Positions 7,534 through 19,660 of a DNA stretch of 36,129 nucleotides are shown piece by piece. The position numbers and the translations under genes were made by a program. Within the stretch, counting starts at the first letter, position 1. Every line of letters starts with the position of its first letter. The notes under the pieces were generated by a model. The model did not search any database, was not told the origin of the DNA, and saw only the letters and a program-made list of their open reading frames with translations. This DNA is from an uncultured Eggerthellaceae bacterium (GTDB lineage Bacteria > Actinomycetota > Coriobacteriia > Coriobacteriales > Eggerthellaceae): contig CAIFEG010000022.1 in NCBI GenBank assembly GCA_903789415.1, positions 1 through 36,129 of the forward strand. The letters run 5' to 3'.

Positions 7534-8184
7534 CTAAAACGTACGAGACCGTTGCTGTTTTGCTATTTCTTGGATTATGGAATCTTCAATGATGTTCTTA
7601 AATGGTCCAATTTCACCAAAGTCTTCTTTGTTTGATGCACGAACCTTGCGAGAATAGTAAGAAAGAATAGCTCCGGTATAAAAGACGGACAAAAACTTTA
7701 TATTCTCTTTTGGGAGGTATCTATTTGATAAGGTAAATTCAATATCATGCTGTATTGCAGGTGTATAAAGCTTGTACAAATACGACATGAGTCCCGAAGG
7801 GGAAGAATCGGAAAGAGCTTGACTATAAAAATTTTGTTGTTTTAAAAACACCGTATCAAGTGTCTTCATAAATCCCGACCCATCGAGTTGCCGAACACCT
7901 TCTTTTATAAAGGTGTAATAGGGCATACCAAAAAATGGATCATTTTCATCCTTCGGAAACACAAGTTCTTTTTCACTAAAATTACGACGTAATTCATCAG
8001 AGATATTATTTCGAAAAATCCAAATTATGAGAGAATTTTTATCGCGAAAATGATAGTAGAACGTTTTGCGATTTTTCTTTGATGCTTGAACAATATCAGA
8101 TACCGATATTTTAGACATGGGTTTCTGCTCAACTAAGTTGATAAAAGCGTTTGCGATAAGCTTTTCAGTTTTTTCAGATGACAT
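7534..8184 (-). CDS. TetR/AcrR-family transcriptional regulator
   Basis: A 216-residue DNA-binding regulator. The N-terminal helix-turn-helix is clear: MSKISVSDIVQASKKNRKTF (about residues 23-42) followed by YYHFRDKNSLIIWIF. This FYYHFxDK ending is typical of the TetR group with a DhaS-like C-terminal domain. The remainder is a helical ligand or dimer domain that I cannot match to a ligand. The ATG is preceded by AGAGGTG. The gene is divergent from fixA, so control of the fixABCX block is the simplest inference. A second possibility is control of ade, which follows in the same direction. The gene is much richer in A+T than ade next to it. Confidence 0.88.
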   Translation of the reverse strand: MSSEKTEKLIANAFINLVEQKPMSKISVSDIVQASKKNRKTFYYHFRDKNSLIIWIFRNNISDELRRNFSEKELVFPKDENDPFFGMPYYTFIKEGVRQLDGSGFMKTLDTVFLKQQNFYSQALSDSSPSGLMSYLYKLYTPAIQHDIEFTLSNRYLPKENIKFLSVFYTGAILSYYSRKVRASNKEDFGEIGPFKNIIEDSIIQEIAKQQRSRTF

Positions 8185-8286
8185 GTCACACCTCTAATTA
8201 CTTGTGAACTATGGCTAAGCACGATCACTTTGGTACGAGTCTTTTTGGTACTTCTGACTATAAATAAACGAATTTTGTAATCTGTC

Positions 8287-8309
8287 CTAAATATTTATCC
8301 AAATTTTAG
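8287..8309. promoter_or_regulatory. Imperfect palindrome, candidate TetR operator
   Basis: CTAAATATTT (8287-8296) is the inverted complement of AAATTTTAG (8301-8309) apart from one bulged T, around a four-base centre ATCC. It lies about 100 bases upstream of the tetR start. The size suits a TetR-family site, but the region is so AT-rich that chance is possible. Confidence 0.3.
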
Positions 8310-8393
8310 TTCTTTAAATAAAAAATATCAGTATTTAAATCAAAATGATAAAGATATAATGGACAAAAATATTGATTGTGTTGCACATATTTC

Positions 8394-8434
8394 AATTTTG
8401 CATGGATCATTTTTAAATTTTGCATAGTTCATTT
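8394..8434 (+). repeat. 19-base direct repeat, 22-base period
   Basis: Two copies of AATTTTGCATnGnTCATTT at 8394-8412 and 8416-8434, identical except at two positions. The spacing of 22 bases is about two helical turns, so both copies would face the same side of the DNA. A weak third match (ATTTTG) begins near 8439. Placement upstream of fixA suggests tandem binding of a regulator. Confidence 0.6.
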
Positions 8435-8578
8435 ACACATTTTGTTTGATATGACCGTTTAAGAGTCGAAGTCAGTTTTTTACACTTAAAACGTATTAAG
8501 AATCTGCCAGGGTATATAAATACTTAACTCTTTGGGACTGATTTTTAATCACAGTAAGGTAGCTTGTCTGACTGAAAG

Positions 8579-8600
8579 GCGCGGGTGTGCAACCTAGCGC
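8579..8600 (+). other. GC-rich hairpin in the fixA leader
   Basis: GCGC and GGT (8579-8582, 8584-8586) pair with ACC and GCGC (8592-8594, 8597-8600) around the loop GTGCA. It lies just upstream of the fixA ribosome site (AGGAAAGGA, about 8612-8621) and stands out against the AT-rich surroundings. Confidence 0.35.
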
Positions 8601-8626
8601 AACAATAACGGCAGGAAAGGACATTC

Positions 8627-9385
8627 ATGAATATTCTCGTAGCATGCAAAATCGTTCCTGATGATCAGGACATCACAGTTGCGAGTGATGGCTCTCTCGA
8701 TAGCTCTCGCGCTCATGAGATTGTTTCTCAGTACGACTTAAATGCTATTGAAGCAGCAGCTCAGCTCAAAGAGGCAAATGAGGGTTCCACACTCAAGGCC
8801 ATCAGTGTTGGTCCCAAGAAGGCAGATGACTCAAAGACAAAGAAGGACATCTTGTCTCGTGGGGTCGATGAGCTATATCTCATGGCTGACGATTCTTTAG
8901 CAGATCTCGATTCTCGTGCAACTGCAACAGAGCTTGCAAAACTTGTGAACAAAGCGGGTGATTGGGACGTAATCATCGTTGGTGATGGCTCAGCTGATGA
9001 TTATGCGAAACAAACTGGTGTTCAATTAGCATGTGCACTTGATGTTCCGTACGTTGCTGGCGCTACCAATCTTTCTTTCCAAGAAGGAAATCTTGAAATT
9101 CAGCGCAACTTAGAATCCGAATCTGAAGATATTGAACTTGCGGTTCCCGCAGTTGTTTCTGTCTCTCCTGAAATCGCGGAGCCACGTATTGCAGGTATGC
9201 GTGACATTTTGAAGGCTGGAAAGAAACCTCAAAATGTCGAAGCAGCTGAAGAGAAACCAGAAGAATCTATCGAAACTGTTTCTATTAAGGCTCCAAAACA
9301 AGCAGATCGCAAACAAGAAGTGTTTGACGCGTCCGATGGTGAAGGCCTGGACAAGTTTGTCTCTGCCGTTAAAGAAGTTCTCTAG
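8627..9385 (+). CDS. fixA: FixA, electron transfer flavoprotein beta-type subunit
   Basis: ETF beta-type subunit, partner of the next protein. The 252 residues begin MNILVACKIVPDDQDI and contain SQYDLNAIEAAAQLKE and KKDILSRGVDEL, which resemble remembered E. coli FixA closely rather than the housekeeping EtfB. The C-terminus (KKPQNV, then a Glu-rich stretch, then APKQADRKQEV) is also FixA-like. With FixB, FixC and FixX it should form the complex that splits electron pairs between quinone and a low-potential acceptor. That role is known for FixABCX of diazotrophs and proposed for carnitine metabolism in E. coli. A clear AGGAAAGGA ribosome site precedes the ATG. It is the first gene of its operon, 14 bases before fixB. 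Confidence 0.92.
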   Translation: MNILVACKIVPDDQDITVASDGSLDSSRAHEIVSQYDLNAIEAAAQLKEANEGSTLKAISVGPKKADDSKTKKDILSRGVDELYLMADDSLADLDSRATATELAKLVNKAGDWDVIIVGDGSADDYAKQTGVQLACALDVPYVAGATNLSFQEGNLEIQRNLESESEDIELAVPAVVSVSPEIAEPRIAGMRDILKAGKKPQNVEAAEEKPEESIETVSIKAPKQADRKQEVFDASDGEGLDKFVSAVKEVL

Positions 9386-10316: not shown

Positions 10317-11624
10317 ATGGCAGACCAAGAGCCTGATTTCGATATTATTGTTGTTGGATGCGGATGTGCAGGGGCTGTTGCTGCGTACACTGCAGCTCAG
10401 GCAGGAAAATCTGTTTTAGTTGTTGAACGTGGAGAGTATTCCGGGGCGAAAAATATGACCGGCGGTCGTATTTATTCGCATGCTCTTAAGAAGGTTTTCC
10501 CTGATTTCGAAAAAGAAGCTCCTGTTGAACGTAAAGTTACTCATGAGCGTATCGCTATGATGGATCCAACGGCAAATATGACCGTAGACTTTACCAGCGA
10601 CAAGCTTTCCCAAGAGGGAAAAGATTCATATACCGTTCTTCGCGCGCCATTTGATCAGTGGCTTTCGAGTAAAGCTGAGGATGCGGGTGCCGAAATAATC
10701 AACGGCATCGCAGTAGAACAGCTCATAAAAGATGACGCTGGTCGTGTGGTGGGCATTAAAGCTGGCGAAGATGAGATTACAGCTTCTGTAGTGATTGTTG
10801 CTGAAGGCGCAAACAATTTACTTACCGAGCGTTGCTTGGGAGCAAAGCGCCCAACTCCTGATGAAATGGCCGTGGGTATCAAAGAGGTCTTCCAACTTCC
10901 CTCCGATCAAATTGAACAGCGTTTCTTGTGCCCTAAAGGTGAAGGTGCTGCAATGCTGTTTGTTGGTGATTGCACACACGGAAGAACTGGTGGTGGCTTT
11001 TTGTACACCAACAAGGACTCCATCTCGCTTGGACTGGTTGCTACCATTTCTCAGATTGAAAAAGCCGATAACCCAACTCCAATCTATCAGATGCTTGATG
11101 ATTTTAAACATCATCCTGCCGTTGCCCCCATTATCGATGGCGCTAAGCTCGTAGAACATTCTGGCCATTTAGTTCCAGAGGGCGGATACAATATGGTTCC
11201 GCAGCTTGTCTATGATGGTTGCCTTGTGGCAGGTGACGCAGGTATGCTTTGCATGAACCTTGGTTATCAGGTTCGTGGCATGGATTTTGCCGTTGAATCT
11301 GGTCGCATAGCAGGAGAAGTTGCATGCAAGGCCATCGATGCTAAAGATACAAGTGCCACAGGCCTAGCGTCGTATAAGACGCAGCTTGAGCAGGGATTTG
11401 TTCTTTCTGACCTTAAGACATTTAGCGCTTGGCCCGAGACGATGCTTGACTGGAAACGCATGTTTACCGAATATCCCAAGGCTGTTGAGGGCATCTTTAA
11501 CGCCATGTTTGTAGTTGACGGCCAAAATCAAAAGCATCTGAAAGAACGCATTAAACCAATCATTAAAGAAATGGGTACCTGGAAGACATTAAAAGAAGTG
11601 AGAGGAGCTCTGAAGGCACTATGA
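10317..11624 (+). CDS. fixC: FixC, ETF:quinone oxidoreductase-like flavoprotein
   Basis: FAD flavoprotein that takes electrons from FixAB and passes them on with FixX to quinone or another carrier. The 435 residues start with a Rossmann motif GCGCAG (14-19) ending in the acidic Glu37. The GAKNMTGGRIYSHAL segment (43-57) is diagnostic of FixC and related geranylgeranyl-reductase-like flavoproteins. GDAGMLCMNLGYQVRGMDFA near the C-terminus closes the FAD site. Unlike animal ETF-QO it has no Fe-S domain of its own, which is supplied by fixX. The SD is GAGGGGG, six bases before the ATG. The stop overlaps the fixX start as ATGA. Confidence 0.94.
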   Translation: MADQEPDFDIIVVGCGCAGAVAAYTAAQAGKSVLVVERGEYSGAKNMTGGRIYSHALKKVFPDFEKEAPVERKVTHERIAMMDPTANMTVDFTSDKLSQEGKDSYTVLRAPFDQWLSSKAEDAGAEIINGIAVEQLIKDDAGRVVGIKAGEDEITASVVIVAEGANNLLTERCLGAKRPTPDEMAVGIKEVFQLPSDQIEQRFLCPKGEGAAMLFVGDCTHGRTGGGFLYTNKDSISLGLVATISQIEKADNPTPIYQMLDDFKHHPAVAPIIDGAKLVEHSGHLVPEGGYNMVPQLVYDGCLVAGDAGMLCMNLGYQVRGMDFAVESGRIAGEVACKAIDAKDTSATGLASYKTQLEQGFVLSDLKTFSAWPETMLDWKRMFTEYPKAVEGIFNAMFVVDGQNQKHLKERIKPIIKEMGTWKTLKEVRGALKAL

Positions 11625-11920
11625 GCGATATAAATCCGATCACCGTAAATGTCGATGCGGCTATTGCACTCAATAAATACAATGTCGATGAGGAAAATGC
11701 TCATATTGAACTTGTAGACAATCCCGATGATGAAGAGTTTAAAAAACTTGTTCGTTTATGCCCAGCGGGTTTGTACAAGATTGATAAAGATGGCAATAAA
11801 ACGTTTGATTATGCAGGCTGTCTAGAGTGTGGCACATGCCGAATTGCGTGCGAATCTACTATTTTGAAAAAGTGGGATAATCCTCAACCAGGCATGGGCG
11901 TTGAATATCGTTTTGGTTAG
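11621..11920 (+). CDS. fixX: FixX, ferredoxin-like protein
   Basis: Small Fe-S partner of FixC. The 99 residues contain CPAGLY (Cys47) and the cluster motif GCLECGTCRIAC (Cys67, 70, 73, 77). These match the FixX/ETF-QO ferredoxin domain, where one [4Fe-4S] cluster is expected. It overlaps fixC by four bases, so translational coupling is likely. The gene is followed after about 30 bases by a strong terminator, making it the last gene of the fixABCX transcript. Confidence 0.94.
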   Translation: MSDINPITVNVDAAIALNKYNVDEENAHIELVDNPDDEEFKKLVRLCPAGLYKIDKDGNKTFDYAGCLECGTCRIACESTILKKWDNPQPGMGVEYRFG

Positions 11921-11951: not shown

Positions 11952-11988
11952 GGTCGTTTGGCGCATACTATGCCCAAACGACCTTTTT
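11952..11988 (+). terminator. Strong rho-independent terminator after fixX
   Basis: GGTCGTTTGG (11952-11961) pairs perfectly with CCAAACGACC (11974-11983). Inside, GCAT and ATGC form four further pairs around ACT. A run of five T (11984-11988) follows at once. Confidence 0.92.
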
Positions 11989-12014: not shown

Positions 12015-12042
12015 CAGACAAATTTTGCGGCATGTATATAAA
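12015..12042 (+). promoter_or_regulatory. Candidate promoter for the acyl-CoA dehydrogenase gene
   Basis: CAGACA (12015-12020, four of six to -35) and TATAAA (12037-12042, five of six to -10) are 16 bases apart, just after the fixX terminator. They would start an mRNA near 12050, about 27 bases before the ATG and in front of its TAAGGGAG ribosome site. Confidence 0.4.
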
Positions 12043-12076
12043 GAAGGCGCAACGTTTTAATAAGGGAGACATTGCG

Positions 12077-13255
12077 ATGGATTTCGATCTTACTGAGGAA
12101 CAAAATAACATCATTGAATCTTTTACCAATTTTTCAAGAAAGTGGTTTGATAAAAACAATTTAGCTCAATGGCAGAATGACCAAGGTTTACCTGACGATG
12201 TTTGCCAAGCCTTTGTAAATTTGTACTGTAAGTTTATACCGCTTGATATTTCACACGCTCATTCTGAAATCACGTTGTCTCAAGTGCTTATCCTTGAAAC
12301 ACTTGCGCGATGCTCTGGGACAACATTGCCCTTCTATTCTGATATGCTTAGTTTGCGGATTATCCAGCAGTTTAGCAACCAACAGCAGTTCATGCCGATT
12401 CTCTCAAATTATAGAAAAACAGGGCGACTTCCTTTTGCTTTAGCTATTACTGAGCCATCTGCGGGAAGCGATACGATGGGCATGAAATGTTGTGTACAAA
12501 CTGTTGATGGTCAACTTACGCTCAACGGTCAGAAAACATTTGTAGTAAATGGTGAATATGCCCCGCATCTAATGGTAGTTGCTATAGATAAAGATTCACG
12601 TTCTAAAGATAAGTATCCTGCCCTTTCATTCTGGCTCTTACCCCGAAATTTACCTGGGATCAGGGCATATCCTGTTGCTAAAATCGGTCAGAATATGCTT
12701 CCTTTTGCAAACTTAGTTTTCGAAGATGTCCCGCTAAAAGAAGAATATCGGCTTCATTCTGAAGTGCGCGCCGGTTTCCCGCAACTTTTCCACCTTTTTG
12801 AAATCGGTCGCATTATGGTGTGCGCCGAATCACTGGGACTTGCAAATGCTGCAATGGATGATGCAGTACGCTATGCAAAGAAGCGTAAGGAATTTGGCCA
12901 CTACATTTCGGAGTTTCAGCAAATTGATCAGATGATTGTCGATATGCAAGTGAAAATTGATAATATGCGTTCTATGACATACAAAGCTGCTTGGGATATT
13001 GATAAGCGCAGTCCAAGACGACGTCTTTCTACTGCATTGGCTAAACGGTATGTTCCAAGGGCTGCGACGGAAGTTGCAAGCGATGCGCTACAAATTTTAG
13101 GTGGTCGTGGATATACCGAAGATGAACGGGTAAGTTGGATTTGGCGTGATTGCCGTGGTAATCAAATCTCTTTAGGGACTGATCAAATAATGGTACGTAT
13201 CGCTACGCCTCTTATTTTGGACTCATATAATGATGAAGATTCTTATACAGAATAA
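12077..13255 (+). CDS. CaiA-like acyl-CoA dehydrogenase / enoyl-CoA reductase
   Basis: FAD enzyme of the acyl-CoA dehydrogenase fold. From ATG 12077, preceded by TAAGGGAG, it has 392 residues. A start 45 bases earlier has no ribosome site. Seen: the family signature AITEPSAGSDT (123-133), GQKTFVVNG (151-159) in the flavin/substrate domain, KKRKEFGHYISEFQ (268-281), QILGGRGYTED (339-349) and WRDCRGNQ (356-363). The general look, MDFxLxxEQ start included, is like E. coli CaiA. Residue 366 is Leu in SLGT where medium-chain dehydrogenases have the base Glu (YEGT). The helix position used by isovaleryl-CoA dehydrogenase and CaiA (xxER) is EIGR here, Gly244. Reduction of an unsaturated acyl-CoA with FixABCX electrons is inferred. 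Substrate unknown. Confidence 0.88.
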   Translation: MDFDLTEEQNNIIESFTNFSRKWFDKNNLAQWQNDQGLPDDVCQAFVNLYCKFIPLDISHAHSEITLSQVLILETLARCSGTTLPFYSDMLSLRIIQQFSNQQQFMPILSNYRKTGRLPFALAITEPSAGSDTMGMKCCVQTVDGQLTLNGQKTFVVNGEYAPHLMVVAIDKDSRSKDKYPALSFWLLPRNLPGIRAYPVAKIGQNMLPFANLVFEDVPLKEEYRLHSEVRAGFPQLFHLFEIGRIMVCAESLGLANAAMDDAVRYAKKRKEFGHYISEFQQIDQMIVDMQVKIDNMRSMTYKAAWDIDKRSPRRRLSTALAKRYVPRAATEVASDALQILGGRGYTEDERVSWIWRDCRGNQISLGTDQIMVRIATPLILDSYNDEDSYTE

Positions 13256-17719: not shown

Positions 17720-18886
17720 ATGGATTCAAAGACGACCGAAGGTCAGTCTACACGTGTCGATGAAGATGCTATAAATGCCGCAAAAGCTCATGTCACCCCC
17801 AAAGAAAAAATAATTTTGACGGGTGATCGTCCTACGGGAAGGCTTCATCTGGGACATTATGTAGGCTCGCTACGCGAGCGTGTGCAGATGCAAAATTCTG
17901 GCGACTATGACCGTGTTTTCGTCATGATCGCCGATGCACAAGCGTTAACTGACAATGCTCACAATCCTGAAAAGGTTCGTCAAAACGTCTTAGAGGTAAC
18001 CCTGGACTATTTAAGTGTGGGAATCGATCCTGAGAAAACCTGTATCTTTATCCAGTCTCAGATTCCCGAACTTTTCGAACTGACCAGCTATTATATGGAT
18101 CTGGTTACCGTTGCGCGCGTGCAGCGCAACCCGACGGTCAAAAATGAAATTCGCCAGAAGAATTTCAACGCGGATGTGCCGCTGGGCTTTTTCTGTTATC
18201 CCGTTTCACAAGCGGCTGACATCACTGCCTTTAAAGCGACGACGGTCCCCGTAGGTGAAGATCAACTGCCGATGCTTGAGCAGGCACGTGAAATCGTGCA
18301 CTCCTTTAATACAACGTATGCGCCGGTGCTTATTGACCCCGTGGCTGTTGTGCCCACCGATGCGGCAGCCAAGCGTCTTCCAGGTATTGATGGTAAGGCA
18401 AAAATGTCGAAGAGCCTTGGCAACTGCATCTTTTTATCAGATGATGCAGAAACCGTTTCGAAAAAGATAAAGATGATGTATACCGACCCCGATCATCTGC
18501 GTGTATCTGATCCGGGTAAAGTTGAGGGAAATACCGTCTTTAGCTATCTTGAAGCGTTTGCGACCGACGAGGATTTCGAAGAGTTTTGGCCTGAATACCA
18601 AAACTTGCAAGAGCTCGAGGACCACTATAAGCGCGGTGGCTTAGGTGATATGCCCTGTAAGCGTTTTTTGGACAAGGTACTTCAGAAAAATCTCGATCCA
18701 ATTCGCAATCGTCGAAAAGAGCTCGAACAGGATATCCCTGCTATCTATGACATGCTTCAGGCGGGAAGTAGGAAGGCGGAAGCAGTTGCTGCGCAAACAC
18801 TTTCTGAAGTGAAGGATGCAATGCGCATCAATTATTTCAACGATTCTGAATTAGTTTCCGATCAGTCAAAACGCTATCAGAAGTAG
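17720..18886 (+). CDS. trpS: Tryptophanyl-tRNA synthetase
   Basis: Class I aminoacyl-tRNA synthetase charging tRNATrp. From ATG 17720, with AAAGGG just upstream, it has 388 residues. The open frame continues upstream into the M50 gene but has no ribosome site there. Seen: the ATP-binding HIGH-type motif HLGH (43-46) in [13 protein letters not shown] and the loop KMSKS (228-232), with AQALTDNA and QSQIPE between them. The first 28 residues are a polar extension before the usual start of the fold ([11 protein letters not shown]). Located between a membrane protease and scpA with short gaps, probably part of a long transcript. Confidence 0.95.
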
Positions 18887-18898
18887 GCCTGGCACACA

Positions 18899-19660
18899 TT
18901 GTCATATCGAGTTCGAACAGGGAATTTTGAAGGGCCGTTTGACTTACTGTTGTACCTGGTAAGCCGTCAACGGGTCGATATTGGTTCGGTTTCTATTTCG
19001 GAAATTGCCGACCAATATGTCGACGAAGTCTCCCGCATGAAAAAGCTCGATTTAAATGTTGCGAGTGATTTTTTGTTGGTGGCCTCGACCCTGCTCGAAA
19101 TCAAGGCGCATAGTCTTTTGCCTGATGAAAAAAGCGATACCGATGATGAAATTCGTGAAATGGAGCCCGAGCAGGCCCGTCGCGCACTCATTGAAAAACT
19201 TTTGGTGTATAAGCAATTTAAGAATGTTTCTGCAGCGTTTGAAGAGCGGCTTGAAAACGAGAGCCATGTTTTTACGCGTCCGTTTGGCCCCAATCAATCC
19301 CTTCTGCATGTGATGCCCGATTATTTGGAGAATGTTTCCCTAGATCAATTGGCAAAAACATGTGCTCAGGCTCTTGCGCGCCGCGATCGTTTCTTGCTTG
19401 AAAGTGACCATATTGCCCGAAAGCCTATCCCTGTTGAGACGCATGTGCAATCGATCTACCATCGCCTCACGCGTGATAAAACTGTTCATTTTCAATCGTT
19501 GGTCAATAACCAGACACCCACCCCAATTGTGGTTGTTACTTTTTTGGCAATCTTGGAACTCTATAAACGCAACCTTGCAGATGTTCGGCAAGATACGGCG
19601 TTTGGTGACATTGTTATTACCTATAAAAATGCGCCATCGCCAAAGGAGGAGTCTCACTAA
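18899..19660 (+). CDS. scpA: Segregation and condensation protein A
   Basis: Kleisin subunit of the bacterial SMC condensin, bridging SMC heads with ScpB. The 253 residues open with SYRVRTGNFEGPFDLLLYLV, the hallmark of ScpA. ISEIADQYVDEV and a helical N-terminal domain follow, then an acidic middle and a C-terminal winged-helix. The start must be the TTG at 18899, because a stop lies in frame 15 bases upstream and MSYRV is the normal beginning of homologs. The SD is weak. The stop is immediately followed by the ATG of scpB, with AAAGGAGGAG serving as its ribosome site. SMC itself is not in the window. Confidence 0.94.
   Translation: MSYRVRTGNFEGPFDLLLYLVSRQRVDIGSVSISEIADQYVDEVSRMKKLDLNVASDFLLVASTLLEIKAHSLLPDEKSDTDDEIREMEPEQARRALIEKLLVYKQFKNVSAAFEERLENESHVFTRPFGPNQSLLHVMPDYLENVSLDQLAKTCAQALARRDRFLLESDHIARKPIPVETHVQSIYHRLTRDKTVHFQSLVNNQTPTPIVVVTFLAILELYKRNLADVRQDTAFGDIVITYKNAPSPKEESH

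Follow-up and report, generated by a model that had tools for sequence, protein, structure and literature searches.

The window, by which we mean the whole analysed stretch of 36,129 nucleotides from an uncultured Eggerthellaceae bacterium, contains a divergent tetR gene and a fixABCX-ACAD cassette whose last gene encodes an acyl-CoA dehydrogenase (ACAD; Table 1). The curated families PRK12342, PRK03363/PRK11916, PRK10015 and PRK12341 are taken here to represent the fix/ydi set of E. coli, with PRK12341 presumably standing for YdiO. Downstream of the ACAD gene lie housekeeping genes, among them those for ScpAB, a ROK kinase, a class I W/Y tRNA synthetase, TrmL and ABC-F. The tetR gene and the adjoining intergenic region (7534-8627) are AT-rich, with 35% GC in tetR and 37% in the stretch at 8-9 kb, against about 46% in the window. 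The ACAD open reading frame extends over 12032-13255 on the forward strand, with an alternative in-frame ATG at 12032; the AGGGAG just 5' of the ATG at 12077 is a good ribosome-binding sequence, and the numbering of E242, G244 and L366 follows from this start. It was also considered whether the terminator-like hairpin between fixX and the ACAD gene is unique to this genome and uncouples the two, which was ruled out by the occurrence of similar hairpins at the loci L067, L061 and L133.

Table 1. Genes, codons and other features of the fixABCX-ACAD locus, in coordinates of the window.
Feature	Position	Strand	Basis
TetR-family regulator, divergent	7534-8184	-	Pfam; same place in relatives
FixA/YdiQ-like ETF beta	8627-9385	+	Pfam ETF; PRK12342
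FixB/YdiR-like ETF alpha, with no other ETF alpha found in the genome	9400-10284	+	Pfam; PRK03363/PRK11916
FixC/YdiS-like ETF-quinone-oxidoreductase-like flavoprotein	10317-11624	+	Pfam; PRK10015
FixX-like ferredoxin	11621-11920	+	By eye, Cys-rich motif and place; 63-78% identity matches beside fixC in relatives
Terminator-like hairpin with T5 between fixX and the ACAD gene	11952-11988	+	Strong; missed by a simple terminator scanner
ACAD of YdiO/CaiA (PRK12341) type, 392 aa, without both known base glutamates	12077-13255	+	ORF call; Pfam Acyl-CoA_dh_1 and _M; NCBIfam; model
Glu242 codon GAA, conserved helix-G acid on the face opposite 244	12800-12802	+	Alignments; ideal-helix arithmetic
Gly244 codon GGT, position of the IVD/LCAD/CaiA-type Glu	12806-12808	+	Class A paralogues Glu in 25/25
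Leu366 codon TTA, position of the MCAD-type Glu	13172-13174	+	Family orthologues acidic in 48/48

The catalytic Glu of ACADs is located either in the J-K loop, as in MCAD, or in helix G, as in IVD and LCAD, and the window ACAD has it in neither place. Its motifs read FEIGR at 241-245 and ISLGTDQ at 364-370, and in HMMER pairwise alignments that are gap-free around the motif the catalytic Glu of YEGT in A. fermentans butyryl-CoA dehydrogenase (4l1f), in the T. thermophilus protein (1ukw) and in the caffeyl-CoA reductase CarC (6fah) aligns on L366. These alignments, together with the comparison of orthologues given below, confirm what the initial annotation, whose interval begins at 12809, one codon past Gly244, had read by eye, namely that the protein has no acid at either known base position. 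The accompanying claim that the flavin and fold signatures are intact is borne out as well. The middle and C-terminal ACAD domains of Pfam are present and place the protein in the superfamily, the AlphaFold model has a mean pLDDT of 92.7 and matches 4rm7 with Z 51.8 and rmsd 1.6 over 371 residues, and TEP-x-x-GSD, R270, F273, Q281, Q339, G343 and G345 are all kept. The role of these residues as FAD contacts is assumed from their correspondence to MCAD, in which R270, F273, Q281, Q339 and G345 would answer to residues with which the adjacent subunit contacts FAD.

Among solved structures the nearest is 4rm7, an ACAD of Slackia heliotrinireducens, which shares the fold and Gly at 244 but has Asp at 366; our literature search found no paper on 4RM7 as an ACAD. 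Among curated families the best are PRK12341 and PRK03354 (crotonobetainyl-CoA dehydrogenase CaiA), with scores far below the cut-offs (330.6 against 537 bits, which falls short of equivalog assignment, and 206.6 against 540 bits). YdiO and CaiA both go with ETF genes of the FixABCX/YdiQRST type, and the Glu of CaiA sits at position 244, where the window ACAD has Gly. At the J-K motif, the CaiA ('Carn') branch has SGG according to the accessible part of PMC8360864.

To survey orthologues, 138 genomes of the family were searched at E<=1e-90; besides the window genome, 48 carry an orthologue, all 48 of which were read, and 89 have no match. The window's own protein (L112) resurfaced in the count and was excluded from the recount of 48. 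Position 366 is acidic in every one of them, with Glu in 46 and Asp in two (G018 and G129, the latter matching 4rm7 at the motif), and at position 244, 47 of them have Gly and one has Ser. A degenerate DNA search for L/F-G-T-D-E/Q-I-M over 396 genomes of the class returned three matches, among which that of the window is the sole ACAD. Leu at 366 is private to the window genome.

For the evolutionary background we aligned 72 distinct proteins from 60 relatives, 40 genome-contig loci and the window genome. The labels A, B and C were assigned from residues 244 and 366, so that independent support for the grouping comes from the tree; class A (25 rows) has Glu244 and mostly Gly366, class B (31 rows) has Gly or Ser at 244 and Glu or Asp at 366, and class C (10 rows) has Gly244 with Gln (7) or Trp (3) at 366, with five outlying rows (X) excluded from these counts. 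L029 and L030 gave no match in the extraction, and L040.3, L026, L078 and L023 were excluded from the tree. The query joins 30 class B rows in a clade of 31 (100/100); class C, with its 10 rows, likewise forms a clade (100/100), and L016 lies outside both. The supported clade and the position beside fixABCX make the window ACAD an orthologue within the Eggerthellaceae class B clade as defined here, and its Leu departs from the acid that characterizes this clade at 366. Since the orthologues are acidic at 366 with Gly or Ser at 244, the base was already at the MCAD position in this lineage, and it looks as if in class B Glu366 of the J-K loop had taken over as base from Glu244 of helix G before the loss seen here. 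Class B loci with the moved base include L130, L131, L040 and L067, and two members use Asp; the titles of 1ege/1egd describe the T255E/E376G swap made in human MCAD, to which this natural shift corresponds.

Apart from this residue, the gene is not generally degraded and has been under constraint for most of its history, as can be concluded from the intact reading frame and ribosome-binding site, few deviations and an ordinary end branch. The 48 orthologues share 61 invariant positions, 59 of which are kept in the window ACAD and two changed (E75T and E291Q). At positions conserved to at least 95%, five deviations were counted in the window ACAD and five in two comparably diverged orthologues, with a worst case of 10 and a median of one; its terminal branch in the tree measures 0.53, within the 0.39-0.55 seen for neighbours that are single genes, and the nearest relative is 58% identical.

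In 12 of the 19 relatives' loci that were read, the order is ACAD_A (with Glu244), fixABCX, ACAD_B; in five of these 12 the class B gene lies more than 1 kb past fixX, and tetR was seen in eight. In the remaining seven loci the fix genes are elsewhere or inverted, or the locus ends. The same order holds for four of the five rows nearest to the query in the tree, and that of the fifth (L039, L132) is cut off by the end of the contig. The window locus corresponds to the order of the relatives minus ACAD_A. No remnant of ACAD_A was found in the gap between tetR and fixA, where the best tblastn matches have E of at least 0.15, and the operon ACAD_A is absent from the window genome, in which its best match belongs to a different clade (60%); the nearby ACAD_X is absent too (best 25-29%). 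The genome of 1.88 Mb encodes four ACADs, of which L001 and L002 are intact with Glu244, and four family III CoA-transferases are found elsewhere in it. The three ACADs besides that of the window are at C1:8209-9381, C3:58250-59404 and C3:54721-55842. A PF00766 search of the genome found one ETF alpha, that of the window, and FixABCX would thus have to serve all four ACADs. Because this FixB is the only ETF alpha of the genome, the retention of fixABCX is uninformative on the window ACAD itself.

We consider it about an even chance (roughly 0.5), and more likely than any other reading, that the window ACAD has recently been disabled or strongly impaired while retaining its fold and its binding of FAD. 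With Leu facing the substrate, no proton would be taken from or given to C-alpha; because there is no carboxylate at either site, the usual C-alpha proton transfer would be impossible, and canonical dehydrogenase or enoyl-CoA reductase activity would be disabled or strongly impaired. The Glu291Gln variant of LCAD is described as catalytically inactive in the accessible part of PMC11153573. The protein would still fold, bind FAD and probably dock CoA esters and ETF, and it is most likely a recent pseudo-enzyme, a leftover of an ancestral pathway that used two or three ACADs and was taken apart in this genome, FixABCX being kept as the only ETF system to serve the other ACADs. Against this reading stands the state of the gene described above, which shows no general decay. 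A mainly reductive role, as proposed in the initial annotation, agrees with the FixABCX/YdiO neighbourhood; it leaves the loss unexplained, however, since position 366 stays acidic in orthologues with the same gene neighbours.

The main rival, though an unlikely one, is base-free chemistry, in which the enzyme would still turn over with the C-alpha step taking place without a protein base, either by departure of an alpha-carboxylate as CO2 or by transfer of a hydride from FADH- to C-beta with water protonating C-alpha. There are precedents on the same fold, as far as the available part of PMC8360864 goes: the benzylmalonyl-CoA dehydrogenase IaaF, which like the window ACAD lacks the Glu of YEG, has GGG instead and decarboxylation is proposed in place of proton abstraction, and the 3-sulfinopropionyl-CoA desulfinase (Acd), with AGG, is likewise without Glu. 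The intact FAD-binding residues and ETF genes and the constraint on the rest of the protein are also in keeping with continued turnover. However, the likeness to these enzymes is limited. Leu is bulky and apolar, unlike the small glycine cavity argued for IaaF, and the GGG motif (SLG here), the oxygen acceptor and the alpha-decarboxylation of IaaF have no sign in the window ACAD; moreover, IaaF does not use ETF and the desulfinase is not a redox enzyme, both again from what could be consulted of PMC8360864. Against the desulfinase family the window ACAD scores 145.4 bits, well below the cut-off of 600, and no gene for carboxylation or decarboxylation was seen beside it. Pocket-focused adaptation found no support, as the pocket is not enriched in private substitutions (4/41 against 35/351 at other positions, p 0.60, with the pocket set chosen by us). 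It is unlikely that selection swapped the acid for Leu and so produced an ETF-linked, base-free flavin enoyl-CoA reductase or decarboxylating dehydrogenase. Leu in place of Glu is not among the motifs listed in the accessible part of PMC8360864, and among the papers listed by a literature search none contained the phrase 'replaced by leucine'.

That another acid took over the role of the base is improbable. Glu242, the nearest acid pointed to in the initial annotation, was ruled out as replacement, being conserved where another base is present (E in 24/25 class A paralogues, which already have Glu244, and E or D in 47/48 orthologues, which are already acidic at 366) and facing away; residues 234-269 form one modelled helix, on which ideal-helix arithmetic puts 242 about 160 degrees from 244. 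The candidates would rather be Asp89, present throughout the clade, or Glu251, which follows two turns further on helix G on the side of 244. In the set of 49 orthologues Glu251 is private; it lies near the face of 244 (340 degrees), towards the pocket, and in LCAD Val298, seven past its base, touches bulky substrate according to the part of PMC11153573 at hand; but Glu251 also occurs in 6/25 class A proteins together with Glu244, so that it is no base marker, and ideal geometry places it about 10 angstroms along the helix. Asp89, being D or E in 48/48 orthologues, is already present where the acid at 366 is kept, and for this reason cannot mark a replacement base. An error of sequencing or assembly at codon 366 is very improbable. 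One genome of the genus was examined, which leaves some room for it, but TTA is two base changes from GAA, and a single base-call error is insufficient because the change from either Glu or Asp to TTA needs two; the frame and the flanking motif are intact, and the neighbouring residue is also off the common type (Ala365Ser, shared with two other orthologues).

It is as improbable as a takeover by another acid that the window ACAD is a non-catalytic subunit paired with another ACAD, as in the alpha2beta2 steroid ACADs, in which only one subunit has the Glu. Such pairs are established (ChsE4-ChsE5 and kin, in the available part of PMC8399759), the genome holds intact Glu244 ACADs (L001 and L002), and the sister clade C, without Glu, co-occurs with an intact ACAD. 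In the same source, Scd1A and Scd1B of these paired enzymes are encoded by adjacent genes, whereas no ACAD gene is adjacent in the window, where the operon partner is lost; the full FAD-contact set is kept in the window ACAD, unlike in class C. In class C, R270 is changed in 8/10 and both F273 and Q281 in 10/10. Its members are G000:C3:54721-55842 (-) in the window genome (locus L004), L079:10689-11852 and kin at L068-L076. For seven of the 10, a class A gene lies within a few kb; the other three have a close class A protein, 68-72% identical to that of the window genome, elsewhere in the genome, and in 5/5 genomes searched for it an intact ACAD, always from one clade, accompanies class C. Genes near the class A and C ACADs encode an AMP-dependent ligase-like protein and, named by eye, 2-hydroxyacyl-CoA dehydratase activator-like and subunit-like proteins, for example L079:13448-14251 and 18262-19392, which suggests a reductive 2-hydroxyacid pathway. 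Class C thus looks like a candidate for a non-catalytic partner subunit as in alpha2beta2 ACADs, although its loss of adenosine-side FAD residues as well is a departure from the simple complementation pattern.

The case bears on how the family is annotated, in that an ACAD gets its name from its fold and an automatic pipeline would label this protein as active. The clean loss of one essential residue, set against 48 orthologues with the acid, forms a natural pair, and this pair makes useful base-free chemistry on the ACAD scaffold directly testable. It also draws attention to class C, another clade of ACADs that lacks the base and is tied to an intact partner.
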